From Halorubrum sp. 2020YC2 (GTDB lineage Archaea > Halobacteriota > Halobacteria > Halobacteriales > Haloferacaceae), in assembly GCF_018623055.1 (NCBI RefSeq), contig NZ_CP076019.1:372001-436000 (forward strand): DNA of 64,000 nucleotides, in the 5' to 3' direction. The notes below the pieces were generated by a model. It saw only the letters and a program-made list of their open reading frames with translations. It ran no database searches and was not told the DNA's origin. The position numbers were made by a program, and so were the translations under genes. This document shows, piece by piece, positions 23,587-40,266 of this stretch (positions within the stretch are counted from its first letter, which is position 1; every line of letters begins with the position of its first letter).

Positions 23587-24921
23587 TCAGTCGTCCGCGG
23601 GGTTCGGTTCCGCGGCCGCCCGCTCCTCGTGCCGGAGGCAGGCGGACTCGTGGTCGGCGCCGCGGACGGTCAGGTCGGGGTCGCTCTTCGCACACGGCGT
23701 CGTGACCTCCTCCGCGAGGAGCTCTCCGGCCAGTTCGGTGTTGTCCTCCAGCAGGAGGGTCATCGCCTCCGAGAGCGTCTCCTCGAGGCCGGGGTCGTCG
23801 ACCGTCTCGCTGATGTCGAACTCGCGCCGGATCTCGGCCCGAACCGCCGAGTCGGTCGACTCGGTTCCGCCGGCGTCGACGTTCTCCCGTACCTGTTCGA
23901 CGTCGATTTGGTCCGTGTCGACCTTCTCGCGGAAGTTCAACAGCCCGCGCCAGTCGCCTTGGTCGACGTCGACCCCGTCGGGCTGGATCACCCTGTGACA
24001 CCGGGTGTGGAACCGACAGCCGCTCGGCGGGTTCGTCGGGCTCGGAACGGTGCCTTTCAGCTCGATACCGCCGACGCTCGCCCGCGGGTCCGGGGTCGGG
24101 ATCGACGACAGCAGCGCCTCGGTGTAAGGGTGTTGTGGGTCGGTGAATATCTCCTCGACCGGCCCGATCTCGACTATCTCACCGAGGTACATGACGGCGA
24201 CGCGGTCGCAGATCTGCTGGATGACGGACATGTCGTGGCTGATGAACAGCAGCGACAGCCCGAACTCCTCTTGCAGGTCGTCGATGAGCGAGAGGATCTC
24301 CGCCTGAATCGAGACGTCAAGCGCGCTCACCGGTTCGTCCGCGATGATGAGGTCCGGGTTCAACACGAGCGCCCGGGCGAGCGCGATCCGCTGTTTCTGC
24401 CCGCCGGAGAACTCGTGCGGGTACCGGTCGAAGTCGGTCGCGGAGAGCCCGACGCGTTCGAGCAGGTCCTCGACGATCGCGCGGCGCCGGTGGCGGTCGC
24501 TCATCCCGTGAACCTTGAGCAGCTCGCCCACCGCGTTCCCGACCGACATCCGCGGGTCGAAGCTCGAAGACGGGTCCTGGAAGATCATCTGTGCCCCCCG
24601 ACGGAACTCCATCAGCTCGTCGTCGTCGAACCGCGTCACGTCGTTGGGGTGGGTCCCGTCCCGATCCCGGGTCGCGCCCTCGCGCCCGTTCCCGTTGAAG
24701 ATCACCTCCCCGGAGGTCGGCTCCTCCAGGTGAATCACCGAACTCGCCGCGGTCGACTTCCCGCAGCCGGACTCGCCGACGAGCCCCAGCGTCTCGCCCT
24801 GCGCGATGTCGAAGCTGATCCCGTCGACGGCGCGGGCGGCGCCGACCTGTCGGTTGAATATTCCCTTCCGGATCGGGTAGTGCTTCTTCAGGTCGCGGAC
24901 CGACAGCAGCGGCTCAGTCAT
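23587..24921 (-). CDS. System 1 peptide ABC transporter ATPase (DppF type)
   Basis: 444 residues. Walker A GESGCGKST, Q-loop MIFQDPSSSFDPR, signature FSGGQKQR, Walker B LIIADEP and H-loop LFISHD are all present. The C-terminal oligopeptide-family tail has Cys residues (GCRFHTRC, then TTPC and SACLRH) that in relatives bind an iron-sulfur cluster. Here about 90 helical residues are inserted between the two Cys pairs. It is last in the system 1 operon and overlaps the DppD-type gene by 8 bases. Confidence 0.9.
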   Translation of the reverse strand: MTEPLLSVRDLKKHYPIRKGIFNRQVGAARAVDGISFDIAQGETLGLVGESGCGKSTAASSVIHLEEPTSGEVIFNGNGREGATRDRDGTHPNDVTRFDDDELMEFRRGAQMIFQDPSSSFDPRMSVGNAVGELLKVHGMSDRHRRRAIVEDLLERVGLSATDFDRYPHEFSGGQKQRIALARALVLNPDLIIADEPVSALDVSIQAEILSLIDDLQEEFGLSLLFISHDMSVIQQICDRVAVMYLGEIVEIGPVEEIFTDPQHPYTEALLSSIPTPDPRASVGGIELKGTVPSPTNPPSGCRFHTRCHRVIQPDGVDVDQGDWRGLLNFREKVDTDQIDVEQVRENVDAGGTESTDSAVRAEIRREFDISETVDDPGLEETLSEAMTLLLEDNTELAGELLAEEVTTPCAKSDPDLTVRGADHESACLRHEERAAAEPNPADD

Positions 24922-25978
24922 CGGCGGGACCCACCTCCTCGTCGCCGTCGGCCGTCCCCGCTCCGTCGCCGGGTCCGAACTCCTCGCTGCCGACTATCGA
25001 GGGGTCGCCGCCCGGGCCGTAGTGGACACAGGAGACCCGCTGGTCCGGTGCGACCTCGACTTCGTCGGGCTGTTCGCCGGTGCGACACGCTCCCTCGGCG
25101 TACTCGCAGCGGGGCGCGAACCGACAGCCGTCCGGTGGGTCGTGCGGATCCGGGAGCGTCCCCGGTATCCCACCGCCCGTGCCGCCGAACTCCGGCAGGC
25201 ACTCCAACAGCTGCCGGGTGTACGGATGCGCCGGGTCGTCGAAGATGTCGAGCACGCCGCCGCGCTCCATCACCTTCCCGGCGTACATCACCACGATCCG
25301 GTCGGCGATCTGCGCGACGACGCCGAGGTCGTGCGTCACGAACAGCACCCCCATCCCGAACTCGTCTTGTAGCTCGTCGAGCAGTTCGAGGATCTGCGCT
25401 TGGACCGTGACGTCGAGCGCGGTCGTCGGCTCGTCGGCGATCAGCAGGTCTGGGTCGCCCACGAGCGCCATCGCGATCATCACGCGCTGTTTCTGCCCGC
25501 CGGAGAACTCGTGCGGGTAGTCGTCGAACCGCGAACTCGCGTTCGCGATCCCGACGCGGTCCATGAGGTCGACCGCCTTGGTGCGCGCCTCCTCGTCGGA
25601 GACGTCCCGGTGGATCTGGAGCGCCTCAGTGATCTGCCACCCGACGGTGTAACAGTGGTTCATCGCCTCCTGCGGGTTCTGGAAGATGTGCGCGATCTCG
25701 TTGCCCCGGATCCCCCGGAGCTCCGATCCGGGCATCGACAGCAGGTCGCGCCCCTTGTACCGGACGGTCCCCCCGATCTTCCCCGGCGGGGTGTCGATGA
25801 TGTTGGTGACCGACTCCGTCGCGACCGTCTTGCCGGAGCCCGACTCACCGACGATACAGACCGTCTCGCCGGCCTCGACGGTGAAGTCGATCCCGCCGAC
25901 CGCGGTGAGCGTTCCGTCGTCGGTGCCGAACGTCGTCGTGAGGTCTTCGACCTCGAGTAGTGGCTGATCGTCGGACAT
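24914..25978 (-). CDS. System 1 peptide ABC transporter ATPase (DppD type)
   Basis: 354 residues. Walker [11 protein letters not shown], signature FSGGQKQR, Walker [13 protein letters not shown] and H-loop LFVTHD are visible. The C-terminal Cys set is compact ([16 protein letters not shown], then SCVHYG), the usual four-Cys pattern of DppD/OppD. It pairs with the DppF-type gene to form the ATPase dimer. The start codon shares one base with the preceding permease stop (TAATG). Confidence 0.9.
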
Positions 25979-27162
25979 TATTCGCTCTCGGCCTCCGCTT
26001 CTGGGTTCAACGCGTCCAACAGCGCGTCACCGAGGAAGTTGAACGCGAGGATGGTCAGGAACAGCACGATACCGGGCGCCAACACGATCCACGGGGCGTA
26101 CGAGAGGTCGCTCCGGCCGGCCGAGATGAGCTGTCCCCACGAGGGGACCGTCGAGTCCCCGATCCCGAGGAACGCCAACTGCGCCTCGAACAGCAGGAAG
26201 CCGGGAATGAGTAGCGTGAGCTGGGTGATGATGCTGCTCGCCACGTTCGGGACCACGTGGCCGCGGATCACCTGATACGTGCTCGCGCCGCTGATCCGGC
26301 TCGCCTTGATGAACTCGTCTTCGGAGATCGACAGCGATTTGCTGCGGACGTATCTGGCCGTTCCGCCCCACGCGAACAGCGAGAAGACGACGATGAACAT
26401 CCCCAACCCGCCGCCGTAGATGTACAGGATGAGCAGGAACATCAGGAACGTCGGGAACGAGAGGATGATGTCGACGAACCGCATCATGATCTCGTCTACC
26501 CACCCGCCGGAGTACGCGCTCAGCGTGCCGAACGTGATACCGATCGTCGCGACGATGGTCGTCGTGATGAAGGCGATCTGCATGCTGATCGTCATCCCGT
26601 AGACGATCATCGTGAACACGTCCTTGCCGGCGTTCGTCGTTCCGAGCGGGTGTTCCCAGGTCCCGTGGCAGCGCCCGTTCATCACCTCTCCGACGCAGGT
26701 CGCCGGCGTCGTGTCGACGACGGAGGTGAACACCGGCGGCTGGTAGGCGATGAGCAGCTCCTGTTGCGGTGCGCTCATCACGAGCGGCCCGACGATCCCC
26801 CCGACGAACACGACCCCGAGCCAGCCCATGCTCACCACCGCCGGGCGGTTGCGCCTGAACTCCTTCCAGTAGTACCGCGTCATCCGCGGGTTCTGGTACA
26901 GCGGCAGGACGAGGTACCAGAACGCGAGGAGTAGCGTGAAGATGAAGAAGAAGTCGACGGCCTCCAGCGTCCGATCGAGCCCGACGAACTCGAAGGTCGG
27001 GGTCCGCCGGCCGGTGAACTGCCAGTCGTACACGGCCAGCAGCGCGAGCGGGAGCGTCGTCAGCAGCATCCCGATCGAGTTGACCGACAGATCGAACCGT
27101 CCGGACCGCGAGAGGTCGTTCCAGTCGACTTGATCGAATCGTTCCGAGCCTTCAGTTGCCAT
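25978..27162 (-). CDS. System 1 peptide ABC permease (DppC type), extended
   Basis: 394 residues, about 100 more than typical DppC. Two extra N-terminal helices (about 28-48 and 70-95) precede the usual first helix (VVSMGWLGVVFVGGIVGP). A large outer loop has two Cys (TCVGEVMNGRCHGTWEHPLGT). The inner-membrane transport domain contains the EAA loop region (EDEFIKASRISGASTYQVIRGHVVPN) that contacts the ATPases. System 3 has the same extended form. Confidence 0.88.
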   Translation of the reverse strand: MATEGSERFDQVDWNDLSRSGRFDLSVNSIGMLLTTLPLALLAVYDWQFTGRRTPTFEFVGLDRTLEAVDFFFIFTLLLAFWYLVLPLYQNPRMTRYYWKEFRRNRPAVVSMGWLGVVFVGGIVGPLVMSAPQQELLIAYQPPVFTSVVDTTPATCVGEVMNGRCHGTWEHPLGTTNAGKDVFTMIVYGMTISMQIAFITTTIVATIGITFGTLSAYSGGWVDEIMMRFVDIILSFPTFLMFLLILYIYGGGLGMFIVVFSLFAWGGTARYVRSKSLSISEDEFIKASRISGASTYQVIRGHVVPNVASSIITQLTLLIPGFLLFEAQLAFLGIGDSTVPSWGQLISAGRSDLSYAPWIVLAPGIVLFLTILAFNFLGDALLDALNPEAEAESE

Positions 27163-27176
27163 TGTTCTCTGTTGAG

Positions 27177-28151
27177 TTACCTGTCATCGTAGCTGATACG
27201 CGGGTCGAGCACGGTGAACACGAGGTCCTCGATGAGGTTCCCCACGACGGCGACGAACGTGAAGAACAGCGTCGTTCCCAACACGAGGTTCGTGTCCTGT
27301 GAGCGGAGCGCCTCGAAGGTGAGCCGGCCGAGTCCGGGTATCCCGAACACGACCTCGACGAGCAGCGACGACCCGAGGAACAGCGCGAGGAGCTGTCCGA
27401 CGAGCGTCGTCGAGAGGGGGACGAGCGTCGGCCGCATGACGTGGTACGCGTACGCCCGGAGCGGCGATACCCCCTTGGCCTTCGCCGTCTTCATGAAGTC
27501 CGCGTTCTGGAACTCGGCGGACTCGTTCCGGGAGACGCGCATGACCGCGCCGATCGATCCGGTCACCAGCACGAACACCGGAATCGTCAGTTGAATCGCG
27601 TTTTCGAGGCTGAAGACCGCGACGTCCGTGTCGTACACGATCGGTATCACCTCCAGCCACACCCCGAAGACCAGAAGCAGGATGATGCCGAAGAAGAAGT
27701 TCGGGATGGCGTAGCCGAAGAAGGCGAACCCGGTCGCCGCGTGGTCCCGCCAGCTGTACATGTTCGCGGCGGAGTACACGCCGATGAGGGGGCCGAGGAT
27801 GACCGTGAGGATCGTCCACGGAATCGAGTACTGCGCGGTGTAGTACAGCGCGTTGCCGACCGCCTCGATGACCGGCTGGCTCCGACTGCTCGACCAGCCC
27901 CAGTCGAGGGTGTACACTCCCTGAACGAAATCGAAGTACCTGACGTAGAGCGGTTCGTCGAGCCCCCTGAGCTCTCTCGCCCGCTGTGTGGCCTCCGCCG
28001 GGTCGCCCCCTTGGAGGGCGGCCTGCGTGGCGGCCTGCTGTACGTCCGGGTTCGGAGCGGCCGACAGGAGCAGGAACGTGATCGTCGTGATGATCAGCGA
28101 TACGACTCCTGCCCAGAGGACGCGAGCGGTAACGTATCTTCCAAATCCCAT
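27177..28151 (-). CDS. System 1 peptide ABC permease (DppB type)
   Basis: 324 residues with six helices. The first helix is N-terminal (ARVLWAGVVSLIITTITFLLLSA), followed by the outer domain with LDEPLYVRYFDFVQGVYTLDWGWS, typical of DppB. The EAA loop is FMKTAKAKGVSPLRAYAYHVMRPTL. It lies 14 bases before the DppC-type gene in the operon order binding protein, B, C, D, F. Confidence 0.9.
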   Translation of the reverse strand: MGFGRYVTARVLWAGVVSLIITTITFLLLSAAPNPDVQQAATQAALQGGDPAEATQRARELRGLDEPLYVRYFDFVQGVYTLDWGWSSSRSQPVIEAVGNALYYTAQYSIPWTILTVILGPLIGVYSAANMYSWRDHAATGFAFFGYAIPNFFFGIILLLVFGVWLEVIPIVYDTDVAVFSLENAIQLTIPVFVLVTGSIGAVMRVSRNESAEFQNADFMKTAKAKGVSPLRAYAYHVMRPTLVPLSTTLVGQLLALFLGSSLLVEVVFGIPGLGRLTFEALRSQDTNLVLGTTLFFTFVAVVGNLIEDLVFTVLDPRISYDDR

Positions 28152-28190
28152 GTTGATATCGTAGAGGACGTGTGGTGGAGGCGAGCCGAG

Positions 28191-30128
28191 CTACTCCCCG
28201 TATCTCCACGCCGGGAGGTTCCAGCCGTTGGAGAAGTTCTCGATGGGACCTTCGAGCCCCTCGCGGTACCCGACCGTGTCGTCGGGGAACGTGAGCATGA
28301 TGTACGGCTGCTCCTCGGCGAGGTTGGCGAACAGCTCGATGAGCGCGTCCGCCAGCTCCTCTTGAGACGTCGCCTCTCGCGCGCTCTGGAACAGCTCCTC
28401 AGCGTTGAACCCCGGGTAGTAGCCGACGGGGTTGTACAGCGGGTTCGCGCCCTCGAAGAAGACGCTGTTAGTGAGCGGGTTCCGGGGATACGTGTTCAGG
28501 CCGAACACGACCTCCATGTCCCACGACTCGTTGGACGTGACGTTGCGCGGGCCGGGGTTGGTCGAGGTTGGCTGGGTCCACTCCACCTCCTCGCCGTTCA
28601 CCGTGTCGACGAGCTCCTCCGGCACGCTGGTGACCTCGCCCTCCTCGTTCGTCTCGGGGGTGGGGTAGTCGGTCTGCGTCCAGTACTCGTTGTTGAACCG
28701 GGTCCCGTCGATGGCCTCGACGGTCACGTCCATCCCGAGGTTCTCGCCGAGTTCCTGCGCGATGAAGTCGGCCATCAACTGCTCGGTGTTCTGCCCGGCG
28801 CTGTGGTAGAGACTGAGCTGGACTTGGTTTCCGTCGGGGTCGACCATCGTCTCCCCGTCGAACCGGTAGTCGTACTCGGACTGCTCGAACGCGTCTTCGG
28901 CCAGTCCGCGAGCCACCTCGCTCCCGTAGTTGTCTCCGACGCCGAACGTCGGGATGTCCTCCTCCGGCGGGTAGAAGTTACTGAACCGCGGCTGCCACGT
29001 GAAGTGGGTCTCGGCGAAGTCTCGGAAGACGCCCTGGATCAGTCCCTCCTTGTCGATCGCGGAGGCCATCGCCTGGCGGAACGGCACGTGCCGGAACATG
29101 TTCCCCGGCCCGGTCGTCCACCCGTTGTCTCGCATGTTGAGCGAAATTTTCTCGTTGTACGGCTGCGGGATCCGGTTGACGTATATCTCGTCGTTGTTCT
29201 GGTACGATTCGACCTGGTTGGGCGGGATCGCCGCCGAGTCGACCTCTCCCGTCTCCAGCGCACCGAGCCGCGAGGCCTGCTCGCCTATCACGCGGATCTC
29301 GGCCTCCTCGAAGTACGGGGCCTCGCCGAACACGTCCGGCAGGTCCTCCGCGTCTTGGAGGTAGTAGTCGTCGTTCCGGCTGTATCGGGTTCCGCCGTCT
29401 CGCTGCCACTCGTCGAGGACGTACGGACCGAGGTTCCCCGAGAACTGGAGTTCGAGCAGCTCCTCGTCCTGTCGAAGCCCCTCGGTGTCTTCCTCTTCGA
29501 CGTACGGCTCGAGAAGCCCCTGCGGAATCGGGTACAGCTGCGGCTCATAGCTCTCGGGCCACAGGAGCTGCGGCGTGTTCAGCGTCGCCTGGAACTCGTA
29601 CTCTCCGGTCTCTTCGACCGTGACCCCGTCCCAATCCGCCGACGCGACCGAGCTCGCCCAGCTGCTCTGATGGACCTCCTGAATGAGGTAGACGAAGTCG
29701 CTCGCGGTCACCTCGCCGTACGGGTCGCTGAACTCGAGCCCCTCGCGTACCTCGAAGGTCCACACCTCGCCGTCCTCGGTGGACATGTCGTAGAGGAGCG
29801 GAACGTACTCGTTCTCCTCGTCGAACGTGTACCCGAGATCGAGCGCTCGGGCGATCGCGTTCCCGGCGCCGTTCTCGTCGTTGTATATCGGATTGAGCGT
29901 CGAGAAGGAAGACGCCGCGGCCGTCGCGTATATCTCCTCTTGGCTGAGATCGCTCGAACCGGAGCCGCCGTCGGAGCTGTTGCCCTCGCCGCCGCTGTCG
30001 CCGCCGTCGCCGCCGTTTCCGGAGCACCCCGCGAGCGTTACCGCGCCGGCGAGGCCGAGCGCGGAGAGCCATTGTCGCCGGTTGACGTGTCTGGGGTCGT
30101 CGCCATCATCCATGTCTCGAGATGACAT
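28191..30128 (-). CDS. System 1 peptide-binding lipoprotein (SBP family 5)
   Basis: 645 residues from ATG 30128; ATG 30113 is an alternative. A Tat lipoprotein signal has NRRQWLSALGLAG and the lipobox LAGC. A Gly/Ser-rich linker precedes the binding domain in normal family 5 order: a first lobe starting near STLNPIYNDENGAG, the central FRQAMASAIDKEGLIQGVF, and the closing lobe starting QLSLYHSAGQNTEQLMADFIAQ. It captures peptides at the cell surface for the permeases encoded just downstream. It serves as an in-window control for the permuted system 2 protein. Confidence 0.9.
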   Translation of the reverse strand: MSSRDMDDGDDPRHVNRRQWLSALGLAGAVTLAGCSGNGGDGGDSGGEGNSSDGGSGSSDLSQEEIYATAAASSFSTLNPIYNDENGAGNAIARALDLGYTFDEENEYVPLLYDMSTEDGEVWTFEVREGLEFSDPYGEVTASDFVYLIQEVHQSSWASSVASADWDGVTVEETGEYEFQATLNTPQLLWPESYEPQLYPIPQGLLEPYVEEEDTEGLRQDEELLELQFSGNLGPYVLDEWQRDGGTRYSRNDDYYLQDAEDLPDVFGEAPYFEEAEIRVIGEQASRLGALETGEVDSAAIPPNQVESYQNNDEIYVNRIPQPYNEKISLNMRDNGWTTGPGNMFRHVPFRQAMASAIDKEGLIQGVFRDFAETHFTWQPRFSNFYPPEEDIPTFGVGDNYGSEVARGLAEDAFEQSEYDYRFDGETMVDPDGNQVQLSLYHSAGQNTEQLMADFIAQELGENLGMDVTVEAIDGTRFNNEYWTQTDYPTPETNEEGEVTSVPEELVDTVNGEEVEWTQPTSTNPGPRNVTSNESWDMEVVFGLNTYPRNPLTNSVFFEGANPLYNPVGYYPGFNAEELFQSAREATSQEELADALIELFANLAEEQPYIMLTFPDDTVGYREGLEGPIENFSNGWNLPAWRYGE

Positions 30129-30610
30129 ACACCATGCTATGAACGAGTATACAAAAAACTTCAGACTCACTATCATCTCTCCAATAGATGTGTTGGTTTA
30201 CTCAGATATGAGATATCTCTCACCTTCGTTCGATATTTCGAGGTTAGATAAAGTAGAATATCTCTTATCTGAGTGCCCCCGAGACCTTCTGTGAGAACGC
30301 GTCGACGCGGTCGCCGTTTACGGGGTGCTGCCAATACGAACTCCGTCCGGCGCGCCGCGTCTCCCGACCCGATACACGACGACATTGTTGTTCCGAAGCT
30401 GACGTATTCTGAAACAGTCTCATTTCAAATCGCAAATATTGGTTTGTTCCATAATCATTATTCATGTCTGATTGTCACCTGTTGAGCCTGTCTATTCATA
30501 TTTCAAAATTTTTTTTTGGGCCTATAAATTTATATTATCTAATTATCGGTGCTGAATCCGTTTCACCGACGTATCGCAACATATTATAGTAGTCAGTTGT
30601 AGCTTGTTGT
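30129..30610. promoter_or_regulatory. AT-rich divergent promoter region between systems 1 and 2
   Basis: About 480 bases of distinctly AT-rich sequence separate the two divergent binding-protein genes. It includes long A/T runs (around 30506-30536). CATATTATAG at 30580-30589 is about 25 bases before the system 2 ATG and is its likely TATA box; another box, TATAAAT, lies at 30523. I see no convincing protein gene here; short frames of 60-70 codons lack haloarchaeal composition. Confidence 0.55.
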
Positions 30611-32611
30611 ATGCCAAGTCGGCACAACGAACCTAACTCTAATCAAACGATCAATCGACGGAACGTCATCGTCTCCATCGGGACGGCTGGAGCGGCCGGT
30701 CTGGCCGGCTGTAGTGGCCAATCCGACGGCGACGACGGCGGTGACGGCGGCGACGGCTCCGATGGCGACGACGGCGGAGACTCGGAGGGGCTGTTCCCGC
30801 TCGACGTCCGGCTGGAGACGAACGCGGACAACGACGACCGCGTTCAGCTGGTCGAACTCATCGCCGAGTCGATGGGACAGACCGAGTACTTCAACACTTC
30901 GGTCGAGACGTTCGAGTGGAACACGTACACCGGCCGCGTGCTCGACCCCGAGTACCAGGAGAACGGCTACGTCCCGTGTATCGGCCTTTCCGGCACGTTC
31001 AACCCCGGGAGCTTCTGTAACGCGCTCCACTACTCCGAGAACATCGGCGCGTGCTGTAATCTCAACGGGATCGACGACGCCGAACTCGACGACATGATCG
31101 ACGCCGCTCGGTACGGGCCGGAGGTCGCCGCCGACAACGAGCTCCGCGGCGAGCGCTACGACGAGGTCTGGAACTACCTCGCCGAGGAGCGGTACAGCTC
31201 GATCACGCACTTCGGGCTCGAGACCGCGGTGACCAGTACCGACATCCACGGCTACTCGGTGTACCCGTTCAACGAGAGCGTGATGAGCTACGCCATGTAC
31301 GCCCCGCAGGACGAGCAGGTCATGTGGATCGACCGCGAGAACGAGGCGTCCGAGGAAGAAGAGGACCTCGCGGATCTCGTCGAGGGCGGCGCGCTCGCCG
31401 GTGGGCTCGGCGCCAACATCGAGTCGTTCGACCCGCCCCACAGCAGCGACACCACCTCGACGATGGCCCAGAACTTCATCTTCGAGGCGCTCACGACCAA
31501 CGACCGGCAGGGGAACGTCTACCCGTGGCTCGCGGAGAGCTACGAGTTGCTGGACGCGACTGACGTCACCGAGGCCGACTACGCCGATTACATGAGTACG
31601 GTCGGCACCACCGATGAAGACGCCGTCGACACCGACGAGCAGGTCATCATCCGGCACCCGGAGGACAACCCGGCCGAGGACGACGAAGTCCGCGTTCTGC
31701 TGCCCGAGGACGCCGTCGAGGCGGCCGAGGACGGTACCTACGGGATGCACTACCGGTACGACCTCCACGAGGGGGTTCAGTTCCACAACGGCGACGAGCT
31801 CACCGCGTCGGACGTCGTCGCGACCTACGAGTACGCCGAGAACTCCCAACTGGCGCCCCAGACGTTCGACTCCGTCCTCGCCGTCGTCGAAGAGGACGAG
31901 TATACCGTCGACATCTACGCGCAGATTGCCGACGCGGAGGCCGAGCGCAACCTTCCGGGGCTGCTGATCCTCAACGAGAACCAGATCTCCGATATCGAGA
32001 AGGGGAGCCTCGACCCGCGCGAGGGCAACGAGCCCGTCGGCACCGGTCCGTACGAGTTCTCCGAGTTCGAGGACGAGCAGTACTTCGAAGTCACCAAGTT
32101 CGACGATTACTGGGTCGAGAGCGCCGGCGTCTCCGAGGCGTTCGACTGGTTCGACGGCCCGTCGGAGTTCCCCGACGGCCCCGTCATCGACTCCTTCGAG
32201 CTCGAGATCGTGCCGGACAACTCCACGCGATCGGCCGCGCTTCAGGAGGGCGAGATCGACCTGACCTACGGGCTCAACACGGGGACCCTCGACGACTTCG
32301 ACTCCTCCGAGGACTTCATCCTGTACAGCACCGAGGCCGGCGGCTACACCTACATCCAGTACCCGGTGAACGTCGAGCCGTTCGACGACCGCCGGATCCG
32401 GCAGGCGATCAACCATCTCGTGCCGCGCGAGCAGATCGTCGAAAACATCCTGAACGGCTTCGGGAGCCCGGCGTACACCGACATCCCGTCGCTCGCCCGC
32501 GGCTCCGGGACAGCAGACTACGACGCGCTCGAAGAGAACGTGCGTCCGACCAACGAGTTCGATCAGGAGCGCGCCATCGAGCTGCTCGAGGAAGTCGCCG
32601 CGGAGAACTGA
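30611..32611 (+). CDS. System 2 peptide-binding lipoprotein, apparently circularly permuted
   Basis: 666 residues. A Tat lipoprotein signal (NRRNVIVSIGTAG, lipobox LAGC, Cys34) and an Asp/Gly linker to about residue 60 are normal. Residues 61-243 (from LFPLDVRLETNADNDDR to APQDEQVMWIDRE) look like the closing lobe of SBP family 5, which should be C-terminal. Residues 250-666 (EDLADLVEGG, NIESFDPPHSSDTTS, FHNGDELTASDVVATYEYA, FDDRRIRQAINHLVPREQI, RAIELLEEVAAEN) are the normal N-terminal and central parts and end at the stop. Joined the other way round, the two parts make a standard protein. The frame is intact. Confidence 0.82.
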   Translation: MPSRHNEPNSNQTINRRNVIVSIGTAGAAGLAGCSGQSDGDDGGDGGDGSDGDDGGDSEGLFPLDVRLETNADNDDRVQLVELIAESMGQTEYFNTSVETFEWNTYTGRVLDPEYQENGYVPCIGLSGTFNPGSFCNALHYSENIGACCNLNGIDDAELDDMIDAARYGPEVAADNELRGERYDEVWNYLAEERYSSITHFGLETAVTSTDIHGYSVYPFNESVMSYAMYAPQDEQVMWIDRENEASEEEEDLADLVEGGALAGGLGANIESFDPPHSSDTTSTMAQNFIFEALTTNDRQGNVYPWLAESYELLDATDVTEADYADYMSTVGTTDEDAVDTDEQVIIRHPEDNPAEDDEVRVLLPEDAVEAAEDGTYGMHYRYDLHEGVQFHNGDELTASDVVATYEYAENSQLAPQTFDSVLAVVEEDEYTVDIYAQIADAEAERNLPGLLILNENQISDIEKGSLDPREGNEPVGTGPYEFSEFEDEQYFEVTKFDDYWVESAGVSEAFDWFDGPSEFPDGPVIDSFELEIVPDNSTRSAALQEGEIDLTYGLNTGTLDDFDSSEDFILYSTEAGGYTYIQYPVNVEPFDDRRIRQAINHLVPREQIVENILNGFGSPAYTDIPSLARGSGTADYDALEENVRPTNEFDQERAIELLEEVAAEN

Positions 32612-32695
32612 CGGTCCGGCCACGGACCGCCTTTCAGAGTCTACACGCACACCCAACCACTGACAACTGATGGCTACCACCCTACCCACACGACG

Positions 32696-33649
32696 ATGAG
32701 TCTCCAACGGTTCATCTTGAAGCGCGCACTGTCGATAATCCCGATCATGTTCGGCGTCTCGGTGATCACGTTCGGGATGTTTCACCTCACGCCCGGCGAT
32801 CCAGTCTCGCAGCTGGTTGCGTTGAACCCGGACGTCAGCGCCGCCGAGGAGGCGGCACTTCGGGAGCGGTGGGGGCTCGACGGTCCCGTCTGGCAGCAGT
32901 ACCTCGAGTGGATCTCGAACGTGATCGTCGGCGACTTCGGGGTGGAGCTACAGACCGGCCGCGAGGTGTCCGCCATCGTGTGGCGACGCCTCCCCGAGAC
33001 GATCGCGCTCGGCCTGTTCGGCTGGGCCTTCGCGCTGATCATCGCGATCCCCGCCGGCATTTACGCCGCCGTCAACAAAGGGAAGTTCGGCGACACGGTC
33101 AGCCGCTTCCTCGCGCTGTCTGGCATCTCGATTCCGAACTTCTGGCTCGGGCTGATGCTGATCCTGATTTTCTCGCTGTACCTCGGGCTGTTCCCGGTGC
33201 TTGCGCCGTCCGAGCCCCTGTACCACCCGGATATGCTGTGGTACCTGCTCCTACCGGGGATCACGATCGGGACCGCGTCGGCCGCGAGCATCATGCGCGT
33301 CATGCGGACCTCGATGACCGAGGAGCTGAACAAGGAGTATGTGACTGCCGCCCGCGCGAAGGGGCTCCCGGAGCGCACGGTCATCCTGAAACACGTGTTG
33401 CGGAACTCGCTCATCTCGGTCGTCACCCTGGCGGCGACGCTTACGGCCTCGATCGTCGCCGGCTCCGTCGTCGTGGAGGTCGTCTTCAACTGGCCGGGAC
33501 TCGGCCGGGAGTTCATCAACGCGATCAACCAACGCGAGATCAACGTCGTGATGGCGATCACGCTGTTCACGGGCTTCTTCGTGATCCTCGCAAACTTCGT
33601 CGCGGACGTCGTGTACGCGGCGCTCGACCCAAGAATTCGATATGACTGA
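32696..33649 (+). CDS. System 2 peptide ABC permease (DppB type)
   Basis: 317 residues with six helices. N-terminal FILKRALSIIPIMFGVSVIT and FHLTPGDPV are characteristic of DppB. The EAA loop reads LNKEYVTAARAKGLPERTVILKHVLRN, and the end is DVVYAALDPRIRYD. It follows the permuted binding protein by 84 bases. Its last 8 bases overlap the DppC-type start, so the permeases are translationally coupled. Confidence 0.92.
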   Translation: MSLQRFILKRALSIIPIMFGVSVITFGMFHLTPGDPVSQLVALNPDVSAAEEAALRERWGLDGPVWQQYLEWISNVIVGDFGVELQTGREVSAIVWRRLPETIALGLFGWAFALIIAIPAGIYAAVNKGKFGDTVSRFLALSGISIPNFWLGLMLILIFSLYLGLFPVLAPSEPLYHPDMLWYLLLPGITIGTASAASIMRVMRTSMTEELNKEYVTAARAKGLPERTVILKHVLRNSLISVVTLAATLTASIVAGSVVVEVVFNWPGLGREFINAINQREINVVMAITLFTGFFVILANFVADVVYAALDPRIRYD

Positions 33650-34693
33650 CGAACGACAGCACCACAGCGAACGCGGTCGCATCCGGGTCTCCGGGTTCGA
33701 CTCCGAACGCGTGACGCAGCGCGAACCGCTCTCAGACTGGACCGAGGACGCCGGCGGCGAAACCGTCGGCCGCTGGCGGCGCGGTCTCCGCCGATTCATC
33801 CGAAACCGGGCGGCGATGGGCGCGCTGGTGATCGTCGTCCTCATGGCGCTGGCCGCGTTCCTCGCGCGTCCGATCGAGGTCGGCGGTGTCGTCGTCCAGC
33901 CGTTCTCGCTGGCCCCGTACGACCCGACGACGATCCTCTACCTTCAGGACCCCGCCGTGGACGTCTACGACCCGCCGTCGTGGCAGTACCCGATGGGCAT
34001 CGACGGCTCCGGGCGAGACCTCTTCTCCCGGATGCTCGTCGGCGGCCGGTACAGCATCTCGATCGGGTTCATCGTCGTCGGGCTGACGGCCTCGATCGGG
34101 CTAATATACGGCGCCGTCTCCGGTTACTACGGCGGCAACGTCGACGAGCTCATGATGCGGATCGTCGACACCATCTACGCGTTCCCCGGTCTGGTGTTGG
34201 CGCTGATCATCATCGCCATCCTCGGCGGCGGCTACTGGCAGCTCGTGTTAGCGTTCAGCCTGTTCGGCTGGGCGGGCTACGGACGACTAGTCCGCGGCGA
34301 GGTGTTACAGATCAAGGAGAACGAGTACGTGATGGCGGCAAAGGCGCTGGGCGCGCGCGACCGGTCGGTCGTGTTCAGACACATCGCGCCGAACGCGATG
34401 CCGCCGCTCGTCGTGCTGGCGTCGCTCAACATCGGTAGCGTCGTGATCGGCGTCGCCGCGCTCGGGTTCCTCGGGCTCGGCTTGGAGCCGAGCACCGCCG
34501 AGTGGGGGACGATGCTCGATGCGACCCGCGAGACGCTCATTCAGGGCCCCGGCGGACGGATCCCCTGGTGGGCGACCGTGTATCCCGGCGTGGCCATCTT
34601 CACCTTCGTGATGGCGATGAACATGATCGGCGACGGGATCAACGACGCGCTCGACGCCCAGCAGACTGGCGTCGGTCGCGGGGGTGAAGAGTA

Positions 34694-34694
<1 letters not shown>
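33642..34694 (+). CDS. System 2 peptide ABC permease (DppC type)
   Basis: 350 residues. A soluble N-terminus of about 55 residues is followed by FIRNRAAMGALVIVVLMALAAF, an outer loop with PMGIDGSGRDLFSRML, and the EAA loop NEYVMAAKALGARDRSVVFRHIAPN. It is shorter than its system 1 and 3 counterparts and lacks their extra N-terminal helices and Cys loop, so system 2 belongs to a different subfamily. Confidence 0.92.
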
Positions 34695-35762
<1,068 letters not shown>

Positions 35763-35770
<8 letters not shown>

Positions 35771-37091
35771 GTCCGAGCCGATCCTCCGCGTCGAGGGGTT
35801 AGAGAAGTACTACGAGTCGGCCAGCGGGTTCGTCGACAACCTGCTCGGACGGTCCCAGCCGGTGAAGGCGGTCGACGGCGTCGACCTGACGCTCCACGAG
35901 GGCGAGACGCTCGGCGTCGTCGGCGAGTCCGGCTGCGGGAAGACGACGCTCGGCCGCAGCATGCTCCGCCTGATCGAACCCACGGGCGGCTCCGTCTACT
36001 ACAAGGGCGAAGACATCACCGACCTGTCCAGCTCGGACCTCCGGAACCTCCGGAAAGACATCCAGTACATCTTCCAGGACCCGTTCTCCAGCCTGAACCC
36101 GCGGCTGACCGTCGGCGACATCATCGGGGAACCGCTCGACATCCACGGCATCGCGGAGGGGGAGGAACGGACCGAACGGATCTACGAGCTGCTGGATACC
36201 GTGGGGTTGAACCCGAGCCACGCGAACCGGTACCCGCACGAGTTCTCCGGCGGCCAGCGGCAGCGGATCGGCATCGCCCGCGCGCTCGCTGTCGACCCCG
36301 AGGTCATCGTCTGTGACGAGCCGGTCTCCGCGCTCGATGTGAGCGTCCAGGCGCAGATCCTCAACCTCATGGAGAACCTCCAAGAGGAGTTCGGGCTCTC
36401 GTACGTGTTCATCGCGCACGACCTTAGCGTCGTCGAGCACATCTCCGACCGGATAGCGGTCATGTACCTCGGGGAAGTGGCCGAGATAGCGCCGACGGAG
36501 GAGGTGTTCGAACCGCCGTACCACCCGTACTCGGAGGCGCTCCTCTCGGCAATCCCCGAACCGGACCCGCTCTGGGAGGGGGAACAGATCTTCCTCTCCG
36601 GCACCGTCCCCTCTCCGCTGAACCCGCCGTCTGGCTGCCGGTTCCACACCCGGTGTCCGAAGGTGATCCGCGACGCCGACTACGACCTCTCACAGGAGAC
36701 GTGGCGGTCGGTCATGGACATGAAGCTCCGGACGCGAGAGGCGGACTCCGTCGGATCGGTGACCGCGGAGCTCGAAGCCGAGGTGACAGGATCCCGGACG
36801 TCCCCGACCGACGCATCGCGCGAGCAGTTTGGTGAGATGGTCCGCACCGAGTTCGACCTCCCGGAGACCCTGTCGGACGACGACGCGGAGACCGCGGTCG
36901 CGGAGGCGATCGACCTGCTCCGCGACGAGGAGCTCTCCGCGGCGGCGACGGCGTTGGAGGACGCGTTCACCTCGCCGTGTTCGACGCACGAACCGGACGC
37001 CTACGAGGTGAGCGACAACCACCACATCTCGTGTCTCCGGTTCGACGACCGGTTCGACTCCGAGCGGGAACTGTTCGGTAACGCGGCGTAG
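35763..37091 (+). CDS. System 2 peptide ABC transporter ATPase (DppF type)
   Basis: 442 residues from ATG 35763; a GTG at 35754 is possible. Walker [11 protein letters not shown], signature FSGGQRQR, Walker [13 protein letters not shown] and H-loop FIAHD are present. As in systems 1 and 3, a segment of about 100 residues rich in Asp/Glu/Ala lies between the first Cys pair (GCRFHTRC) and the second (TSPC, SCLRF). The gene closes a five-gene operon. Confidence 0.92.
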
Positions 37092-37231
37092 TCGGCGCCC
37101 CGCCTTTCTCGTCCGGTGTTCCGCGTTTCGCCGTTCACCCCGAATTCCCCCGTTTTCGCCGGTTCAACCCCGCTTTCCGCCTGTCCGACTCCGGCGTAAC
37201 GCTTTATCCTTCGACCCACGTAGCTACCCCA

Positions 37232-37771
37232 ATGCGTCGGATCTACGAGTCGAACGCTCTCCACCGCGACGACGAGGAGGCGCACGCCCCGTCGAAGAAA
37301 GAGCGGAAGACCAAGCTTCAGTCGCTGCGCTCGGTCCCGTCGTCGACGCTGAGCGACCTCCTGATCCCGCGACGGCTGCGCCACCTACCGGTATCGGTCA
37401 CCGTCGAAACGCCCGACGACGAGTACGAGGCCGGCGACCCCGTCCCCTTTACCGTGACCATCCGCAACCGCCTGCCGGTCCCGGTGTCGATCCCGACGGT
37501 CTCGCCGCTCCTCTGGGAGTGGAGCGTCGACGGCAACGTCGAGGCGGCCGAGGTCCCGATTCGGGACCCGCCGGACGAGGGGGGACAGCTGTCGTTCGAC
37601 CGCGGCGAACGCAAGGAGTTCCGGAAGCGGTGGGACCAGCTGTTCAGGGTCTCCGAGCGGGAGTGGGAGCCGGCGGCGGTCGGGGACCACACGATCGGCG
37701 TCGCGGTCAACGCGACGGACGCCGAGAGCCGCGGCCTGACAGACGAGACGACGGTACGGATCGTCCGCTGA
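37232..37771 (+). CDS. Uncharacterised haloarchaeal protein with a beta-sandwich-like domain
   Basis: 179 residues. A basic N-terminus (RRIYESNALHRDDEEAHAPSKKERK) precedes a predicted all-beta domain from about 50 (VSVTVETPDDEYEAGDPVPFTVTIRNRLPVPVSI), with a conserved LLWEWSVDG motif. It recalls the BsuPI-like or CARDB-like immunoglobulin folds. No signal peptide is present. It sits between peptide transporters 2 and 3, but nothing links it to transport. Confidence 0.6.
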   Translation: MRRIYESNALHRDDEEAHAPSKKERKTKLQSLRSVPSSTLSDLLIPRRLRHLPVSVTVETPDDEYEAGDPVPFTVTIRNRLPVPVSIPTVSPLLWEWSVDGNVEAAEVPIRDPPDEGGQLSFDRGERKEFRKRWDQLFRVSEREWEPAAVGDHTIGVAVNATDAESRGLTDETTVRIVR

Positions 37772-37810
37772 GGGGGTCGTCCGAATCCCGAGTCGGTGCC
37801 GCTGCCCGCG

Positions 37811-39154
37811 CTACCGCCCGGTCTCCGCGTCTCCGCCCGAGAGACCCGCCTCTACGCTCTCCCCCCGACCGTGTCGGAGACAGCTGACGGTTCCGGTCGC
37901 TTCCTTCTCCGTTTCGCTCCCGGTCGGGCGGGCGACGGCCGTCGGCGTCTCGCGTTCGCAGACGCTGGGGAACGCCGCGGCCAGTCTCTCGTCCGCGGCG
38001 TCGACGTCGCCGTCTGCCAGGGCCGCGGCCGCGTCGTCGACCGCGGCCTCTGCGTCCGGGTCGGGGATCTCCCCTTCGAGACCGACGGCGCGTCGGACCG
38101 CCGCGGCGGTACGTCCCCCGGGGTCGCCGTCGGCGCCCGTCGCCGTCTCGCTTCCGGGGTCACCGACCGCGCGCTCCGGGAGCTCTCTCGCCTGGACCGA
38201 GAACCGGAGCTCAGCGATCGCCCGCCAGGTCTCCGCGGACACCGAGAGGTCCTCGGGCGGTATCACGTCGGGACACCGAGGGTGGAACCGACAGCCGGAC
38301 GGCGGGTCGCTCGGGTCCGGCACCGTGTCCGTGAGCGGCCGCCCGAGCTCCCGGTCCGTCGGGTCGAGCGAGGGGACCGAGGAGAGCAACACCTGGGTGT
38401 ACGGGTGCGCCGGCTCCGCCAGCACGGTCTCGGTCGCGCCCCGCTCGACGATCTCACCGAGGTACATGACCGCGACCCGGTCGCAGCTCCGCCGGATGAC
38501 GTCGAGGTCGTGACTGACGAACAGGACGGCGATGTCGAACTCGCGCCGGATCCGGTCCAACAGGTCGAGTATCTCGGAGCGGACCCGCGCGTCCAGCGCG
38601 CTCGTCGGCTCGTCCGCGACGATGAGGTCGGGGCTGACGACGAGCGCCCGGGCGATCGAGATGCGCTGTTTCTCGCCCCCGGAGAACTCGTGCGGGTACC
38701 GGTCTACGTCGTCACTCGAGAGGCCGACGCGTTCGAGGATGTCCGCGACGACCGCGCGTCGCCGGTCGGCGTCGTCGAGCCCGTGGATCCGGAGGGGTTC
38801 GGCCACCGCCTCCCCGACGGTCATCCGCGGGTCGAGGGCGTCGTTGGGGTCCTGAACGATCAGCTGGGTGCGCCGACGGAACTCCCGCAGGTCGCCTCCG
38901 GAAAGCTCCGAGACCGGATCCCCGTCGAAGCGGACCTCGCCCGCCGTCGGCTCTTCGATCCCCAAGAGGGTGTGGGCCGTCGTCGTCTTGCCGCTGCCCG
39001 ACTCGCCCACTATTCCGAGCGCCTCCCCGCGCTCGACGTCGAAGCTCACCCCGTCGACGGCGCGGACCCGCCCGACCTCGCGCCGGAGCAGGCCGCGGGT
39101 GATCGGGTAGTGCTTCTCCAGGCCGCGGACCGAGCAGATCGGGTCGTCGGTCAT
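37811..39154 (-). CDS. System 3 peptide ABC transporter ATPase (DppF type)
   Basis: 447 residues. Walker [12 protein letters not shown]-loop LIVQDPNDALDPR, signature FSGGEKQR, Walker [13 protein letters not shown] and H-loop LFVSHD are present. The C-terminal tail has GCRFHPRC, a long Ala/Asp-rich insert (about 340-405), and then PSVC and VSCLRH. It overlaps the DppD-type gene by 4 bases. It is more like the system 1 protein than the system 2 one. Confidence 0.9.
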   Translation of the reverse strand: MTDDPICSVRGLEKHYPITRGLLRREVGRVRAVDGVSFDVERGEALGIVGESGSGKTTTAHTLLGIEEPTAGEVRFDGDPVSELSGGDLREFRRRTQLIVQDPNDALDPRMTVGEAVAEPLRIHGLDDADRRRAVVADILERVGLSSDDVDRYPHEFSGGEKQRISIARALVVSPDLIVADEPTSALDARVRSEILDLLDRIRREFDIAVLFVSHDLDVIRRSCDRVAVMYLGEIVERGATETVLAEPAHPYTQVLLSSVPSLDPTDRELGRPLTDTVPDPSDPPSGCRFHPRCPDVIPPEDLSVSAETWRAIAELRFSVQARELPERAVGDPGSETATGADGDPGGRTAAAVRRAVGLEGEIPDPDAEAAVDDAAAALADGDVDAADERLAAAFPSVCERETPTAVARPTGSETEKEATGTVSCLRHGRGESVEAGLSGGDAETGR

Positions 39155-40266
39155 CGCGACTCGCCCTCCGCGTCCGAGGGCCGCGTCGCGGCCGACTCCG
39201 CGGGCGCGCGCTCCGGGCCCCTCCCGTCTCGGCTGTCAACCGGCGAGGTCGCGTTCTCGCGGATCCGCGAGGCGTCCCCGTCCGGCCCGTAGTGGACGCA
39301 CGACGCCGCGTGGTCCGGGTCCCCGGCGACCGAGCGGAACGCCGGCTGTCCGCCGCCCGCGCACTCGTCGACCGCGTGCGGGCACTCCGCTCGGAACCGG
39401 CAGCCGTCGGTCGGTATCTCGGCGCGGGCGGTCCGCTCCGCGACGGACGCGCCCGCGCGCTCGCCGTAGCTGTCGAACAGCGCCTGCGTGTACGGGTGCG
39501 AAGGGGTCGAGAACACCGACTCGACCGGGCCGCGCTCGACGATCGTCCCGCCGTACATGACCAGCACGCGGTCCGCGACGGCGGCGACGACCCGCAGGTC
39601 GTGGGTCACGAGCAGGATGCTCGTCCCGTCGCCGGCGATCGACCGGAACAGGTCGAGCAGCCGCGCCTGGACGGTCACGTCCACCGCGGTCGTCGGCTCG
39701 TCGGCTATCAGCAGGTCCGGGTCCCCCGCCAGCGCGACCGCGATGGCGATCCGCTGTTGCATCCCGCCCGAGAACTCGTGCGGGTGGCTGTCGAGGCGCT
39801 CGTCCGCCCGGGGGATACCTACCCGGCGCAGCAGGTCGACGGCCCGGTCCCGCGCCGCCGACCGGCTCACGTCCTCGTGGATCCGTATCGGCTCCGTCAC
39901 CTGTTTCCCGACGGTGTACACCGGGTCGAGCGCGCTCTGCGGGTTCTGGAACACGTGCGCGATCCGACGCCCCCGGACCGACCGCAGCGCCGCCGCCGAC
40001 CGGCCGGCGACGGACTCGCCGTCGAACTCGACGGCGTCCGACGACACCTCCGCCGGGGGCTGGGGGACGAGACCGGTGAGCGACTCGCAGGTGACGCTTT
40101 TCCCGCTACCGGACTCCCCGACCAGACACACCGTCTCGCCGCGCTCGACGTCGAAGCTCACCCCGTCGACCGCGTGGAGCCAGCCGTCGTCGGTCCGGAT
40201 CCGCGTCCGGAGGTCGCGCACGGAGAGGAGCGGGGTCTGGGGGGATCCGCCGCGAGAGCGAGTCAC
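39151..40266 (-). CDS. System 3 peptide ABC transporter ATPase (DppD type)
   Basis: 371 residues. Walker A GESGSGKSVT, signature FSGGMQQR, Walker [13 protein letters not shown] and H-loop LLVTHD are visible. The C-terminal motif is DGCRFRAECPHAVDEC, then ASCVHYG, the compact Cys set. ATGA-type overlaps with both neighbours show tight coupling. The extreme C-terminus is a low-complexity charged tail. Confidence 0.9.
   Translation of the reverse strand: MTRSRGGSPQTPLLSVRDLRTRIRTDDGWLHAVDGVSFDVERGETVCLVGESGSGKSVTCESLTGLVPQPPAEVSSDAVEFDGESVAGRSAAALRSVRGRRIAHVFQNPQSALDPVYTVGKQVTEPIRIHEDVSRSAARDRAVDLLRRVGIPRADERLDSHPHEFSGGMQQRIAIAVALAGDPDLLIADEPTTAVDVTVQARLLDLFRSIAGDGTSILLVTHDLRVVAAVADRVLVMYGGTIVERGPVESVFSTPSHPYTQALFDSYGERAGASVAERTARAEIPTDGCRFRAECPHAVDECAGGGQPAFRSVAGDPDHAASCVHYGPDGDASRIRENATSPVDSRDGRGPERAPAESAATRPSDAEGESR

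Follow-up and report, generated by a model that had tools for sequence, protein, structure and literature searches.

The window, a stretch of 64,000 nucleotides from Halorubrum sp. 2020YC2, harbours three Dpp/Opp-type ABC systems side by side (23587-40266). One lies on the minus strand (~23.6-30.2 kb), one on the plus strand (30.6-37.1 kb) and one again on the minus strand, from 37.8 kb on. The middle system starts with an open reading frame (ORF) encoding a Tat-type lipoprotein of 666 amino acids, a binding protein (SBP) of family 5 whose segments stand in the order S3-S1-S2 and which is followed by the genes of an importer (Table 1). S1, S2 and S3 denote the N-terminal, the middle and the closing segment of the normal order. 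Frame and limits of the ORF are those given by a first-pass annotation of this DNA.

Table 1. Features of the permuted SBP gene and of the importer genes downstream (positions in the window).
Feature	Position	Strand	Basis
Circularly permuted SBP family 5 lipoprotein	30611..32611	+	Segment comparison, Pfam, profile match to AppA
Tat-type lipoprotein signal, NRRNVIVSIG ... LAGC, Cys34	30611..30712	+	Sequence reading
Acidic Gly/Asp-rich tether, residues 35-60 (26 residues)	30713..30790	+	Sequence; pLDDT <50 for residues 1-58
S3, closing segment, residues 61-243, C-terminal in normal order	30791..31339	+	Corresponds to AppA 340-508
Junction of ~8 aa, residues 244-251, old C-terminus fused to old N-terminus	31340..31363	+	Sequence comparison
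S1, N-terminal segment, residues 252-333	31364..31609	+	Corresponds to AppA 10-76
S2, middle segment, residues 344-661	31640..32593	+	SBP_bac_5 profile to position 276
C-terminal tail VAAEN, probable shortened remnant of canonical linker into S3	32594..32608	+	Linker comparison
Permease, DppB/OppB type (BPD_transp_1)	32696..33649	+	Domain match; position shared by permuted and canonical loci
Permease, DppC/OppC type (BPD_transp_1, OppC_N)	33642..34694	+	Domain match, locus comparison
ATPase, DppD/OppD type (ABC_tran, oligo_HPY)	34694..35770	+	Domain match, locus comparison
ATPase, DppF/OppF type (ABC_tran, oligo_HPY)	35754..37091	+	Domain match, locus comparison

Segment order of the lipoprotein

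The Pfam profile SBP_bac_5 (PF00496) matches the window protein with high significance (E 1.5e-53, 182.7 bits vs a cut-off of 32.4), and the Pfam, AppA-profile and structure comparisons brought up matches to family 5 / cluster C only. The match covers residues 304-662, corresponding to profile positions 3-276 of 368. Thus there is no single uninterrupted domain in the written order; the missing part, S3, sits upstream. In the canonical relative L105 the profile runs uninterrupted to position 339, and the SBP of the first system (28191-30176, minus strand), which had been annotated as normal in order, matches without interruption over profile positions 9-340 and is normal as far as tested.

A profile built from 33 permuted relatives aligned to solved AppA (1xoc) in three pieces and in swapped order: profile positions 228-294 match AppA 10-76, 358-602 match 79-310 and 26-201 match 340-508. 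A profile of 13 canonical relatives matched AppA, GbpA and DppA in the normal order, with a main piece unbroken to about residue 500 (AppA 79-508). All parts are present in the window protein and only their cyclic order is changed. It is a permuted variant of SBP family 5 and not an ordinary member. The first-pass annotation had proposed S3 at residues 61-243, followed by the N-terminal and central parts, and the permutation and the S3 limits hold; more precisely, a junction of ~8 residues (244-251) comes next, and S1 and S2 run from residue 252. For export, the protein carries, by reading, an RR motif and a lipobox, and the importer genes B-C-D-F are adjacent. Residues R16, R17 and C34 of the signal are invariant or nearly so in A1/A2.

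Predicted fold and lipid anchor

AlphaFold2, run with an alignment of 33 rows, predicts one confident fold for the permuted protein (pLDDT 83.8, pTM 0.82), as the first-pass annotation had suggested checking. Only the signal and tether and two short loops have a pLDDT below 50. Residues 260-666 of the model align to DppA 1-342 (1dpe: Z 22.3, 314 aligned), where the alignment ends; a canonical model aligns to DppA 1-507 (Z 26.8, 472 aligned). S1 and S2 of the permuted model match the AppA structure with Z 24.4. The swapped S3 match did not appear in the output of the structure aligners Foldseek and VIA-align. The part of DppA left over by structure (343-507) probably corresponds to what S3 supplies, judging from the sequence alignments. 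The two-lobed cluster C fold is thus found for S1 and S2 by structure and for S3 by sequence, within a confident global model.

Domain II of DppA comprises about residues 261-478. Placed by these limits, the new termini would fall within lobe II, and the old termini, now fused, would belong to lobe I. Lobe I would then be a continuous insert in lobe II, and the lipid anchor would have shifted from lobe I to lobe II.

Relatives, operon slot and selection

Whole-genome searches revealed full-length or near full-length colinear matches to the window protein in 37 genomes (49-91% identity), far more than chance would give. The permuted order is found in Halorubrum trapanicum, H. coriense, H. xinjiangense, H. 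aidingense, Halobellus captivus and Natronocalculus amylovorans, and also in Halobiforma, Natronorubrum, Natronococcus, Halovivax and Halostagnicola. It is an old trait common to many genera and not an oddity of one strain. In an even phylum sample of 295 genomes, itself limited, no permuted relatives were found beyond the taxonomic order at E 1e-40. Relatives of canonical order (e.g. in Halalkalicoccus, Halocatena, Haloarcula and Halomicrobium) stand at about 42-69% identity.

Mis-assembly, i.e. a swap of pieces of a normal gene in this genome, had been named as the main alternative. The window derives from a single assembly and is subject to that general risk. However, the 37 genomes were assembled separately and share the same order and the same breakpoints across many genera, and frame and operon are intact in the window. 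Mis-assembly is refuted by these orthologues and has practically no chance of being correct.

Permuted and canonical loci share the same slot, in which the SBP is followed by two permeases and two ATPases (SBP-B-C-D-F). Permeases and ATPases of canonical loci are 63-81% identical to those in the window. In one locus, L117 (Halostagnicola sp. A-GB9-2), the two ATPase genes downstream have the opposite orientation to the SBP and permease genes. A fast-evolving permuted SBP, L103 (Halorubrum sp. CBA1125) / L009, has no genes of the transporter found in its flanks and a formate dehydrogenase-like ORF close by; it is possibly an orphan receptor.

Pairwise dN/dS is ~0.15-0.35 in S3 and in S1+S2 alike, therefore both halves are maintained and the permuted gene is under purifying selection. 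This bears on a further explanation, under which the permuted copy would be a degenerating leftover, a pseudogene, and transport would rely on another binding protein. The distant relative L103, whose flanks lack the genes of this transporter, and a clade II copy (see below) broken into two frames would fit such decay, but dN/dS lies well below 1 in both segments, invariant residues occur throughout S1, S2 and S3, no further SBP is found beside the permeases inside the operon and the predicted fold is confident. We regard a pseudogene as very improbable. Segment order, conservation, operon slot, selection, predicted fold and the junction remnants described below are all observed, and we are highly confident that the window protein is a genuine and presumably functional natural circular permutant, the SBP of a DppABCDF/OppABCDF-type importer. 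Working transport and a switch of the tether between lobes are what this reading would entail.

Recurrence of the permutation

Sorting of locus ORFs by segment HMMs, with some loci counted in duplicate, gave 99 proteins of order S3-S1-S2, 60 of order S1-S2-S3 and one distinct S2-S3-S1. In quick trees of the re-ordered segments, the S3-S1-S2 proteins fall into two groups with canonical rows between them. The window protein belongs to clade I. Clade II (L014, L121-L150) comprises 32 full-length genomes, mostly of one family, which we take to be Natrialbaceae. One clade II SBP (G359:C5:154975-156586) is split across two frames by a frameshift or a sequencing error.

The two clades differ in their cut. 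In clade II it lies ~16 residues upstream of the clade I cut, on the opposite side of one helix. The helix that precedes the S3 strand has remained attached to S2, at the C-terminus, in clade I; in clade II it has gone along with S3 to the N-terminus (AEELIQEGFAATGIEPPFET; the canonical counterpart is ADTLLEEGFNEAGVEPPFET). Correspondingly, the last matched SBP_bac_5 position is 276 or 275 for clade I and 260 for clade II. A single common clade of all S3-S1-S2 proteins, whose breakpoints differ too, was rejected (AU p 7e-41). One ancient permutation followed by many reversions is not strictly contrary to the topology, but the differing cuts of clades I and II argue against it. From the sequences, permutation in this family appears to have occurred more than once, with a second independent cut and perhaps a third. 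The candidate for a third is L011 (G036:C138, minus-strand ORF), a rotation to S2-S3-S1 with the N-terminal segment of ~90 amino acids at the C-terminus; it comes from one incomplete genome, has the canonical L109 as its sister, and no second genome with this order was found.

Within clade I a single event is not clean, because the SBP tree places canonical rows inside the permuted group. Several origins at the same site, or reversion to the normal order, would explain this in place of one lasting origin, and such a history is a serious contender, if somewhat below an even chance. Monophyly of the permuted SBPs in clade I is rejected by the AU test (p 0.0007), also with S1+S2 alone (p 0.0014), and the canonical L052 groups with the permuted L089. 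Against this, neither S3 alone (p 0.074) nor the tree of permeases and ATPase (p 0.3), likewise of the quick kind, rejects one origin, and the tails share one ancestral pattern. Taken over the whole family, it is close to an even bet that we are dealing with a permutation hotspot, in which S3-S1-S2 would have arisen two or more times, the cuts lying on either side of one helix, and S2-S3-S1 once, the order in clade I would have switched both ways in one conserved operon slot, and the tether would have moved between lobes with the transporter unchanged.

Origin of the permuted gene

Canonical relatives carry a linker between S2 and S3 (e.g. ELLEEVVDDLGLETPIEI). In Natrialbaceae and other groups, permuted proteins have C-termini such as ELIEEVIEDRGYESSV, followed by the stop, and start with EVSFPLQV. 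The tail of the less shortened permuted L091, which ends in EEVIADHGYESTV before the stop, matches the canonical pre-S3 linker DEVIDDTGIETPIEV of L157. Tails scored against canonical linkers gave a mean best score of 22.7, compared with a mean of 16.0 and a maximum of 18.0 for shuffled tails (500 shuffles). In Halorubrum the tail is shortened. By its sequence, the C-terminal tail of the less shortened relatives is recognisable as the linker that formerly led into S3.

A remnant of this kind is expected if a tandem duplication was followed by loss of the outer pieces, a route already put forward in the first-pass annotation and one that fits the junctions. From an ancestor of normal order (signal-S1-S2-S3), the most likely path is an in-frame tandem duplication that fused the end of S3 in one copy to S1 in the following one; losing the leading S1-S2 and the trailing S3 would then have yielded signal-S3-S1-S2. 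No scanned ORF contained any segment twice, as a tandem-duplicate intermediate would. The resulting protein would keep the same two-lobed flytrap and pass its substrate on to the same pair of permeases. The ~8 residues of the junction bridge the old termini, and the new ones would be located in lobe II, where a helix is followed by a strand. This would make lobe I an insert in lobe II, the reverse of the normal arrangement, with the lipid tether on lobe II.

Alternatively, pieces of different SBP genes may have recombined. Trees of S3 only and of S1+S2 only differ in places, e.g. in the placement of clade I permuted and canonical proteins, a point in favour of recombination. Yet the same family is closest to both segments, the cyclic order is complete and the old linker is kept in the C-terminal tail. 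We consider recombination between genes improbable and tandem duplication of one gene the more plausible route.

Known systems and substrate

In our judgement, it is unusual for a natural circular permutant to have recognisable canonical relatives that occupy the same operon slot. A search of open-access journal papers found no permuted SBP of family 5 / cluster C. A natural SBP permutant as such is already known: MglB-2 (Tp0684) of Treponema pallidum, termed 'Type Ic / Cluster Bc', is a natural circular permutant of cluster B which binds glucose (PMC4990184). Its first N-lobe strands are found at the C-terminus, the moved segment is 13% identical to E. coli MglB, and tethering was considered by the authors to have possibly favoured permutation (PMC4990184). 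Like the window protein, MglB-2 is a circularly permuted, two-lobed, tethered binding protein of an ABC importer, and it still binds its ligand. It has a cluster B (sugar) fold, whereas the window protein belongs to cluster C and is cut in lobe II; and in contrast to the 13% identity of MglB-2, canonical relatives of ~60% identity persist here at the same operon location. In general, natural circular permutants have an altered order and a conserved fold and likely arise by tandem duplication (reviewed in PMC3320104); here, permutation recurs within a single SBP family, and canonical relatives occupy the corresponding operon position.

The value of the case lies in the repeated permutation and in the occurrence of both orders at a single operon slot. 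Within one transporter family there are dozens of proteins of each order, two or more independent cuts, and closely related pairs, for instance L089 (permuted) and L052 (canonical). Such pairs allow direct tests of how chain order or tether position affects SBP folding, binding and docking. They are also a natural guide to permuted biosensor scaffolds from cluster C SBPs. Under automatic annotation, permuted cases can stay hidden as ordinary family 5 proteins.

By operon and fold, the window protein is predicted to be the substrate receptor of a Dpp/Opp-type importer. It resembles the cluster C SBPs (PF00496) DppA, AppA and OppA in sequence and fold of all three segments and as an exported SBP in an operon with two permeases and two ATPases. 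It differs from them in its S3-S1-S2 order, in the anchor preceding S3 and in two binding residues. In E. coli DppA, R383 and D436 (precursor numbering) pair with the dipeptide termini (PMC12136057). In clade I these positions align to ETNxDND (ETNADND) and GLSGTFNP, and neither residue is conserved. The label 'peptide-binding' of the first-pass annotation is therefore unproven, and binding of plain dipeptides in the manner of DppA seems unlikely from this alignment. Both motifs are alike in permuted and canonical members of clade I, with no difference by order.

S3 of the window protein also contains three cysteines, C136, C148 and C149, in the motifs FC and GxCCN. The CCN motif is absent from L014 of clade II and invariant in the aligned members of clade I, permuted and canonical. 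These residues lie in a low-confidence part of the model and possibly form a disulphide or a metal site.
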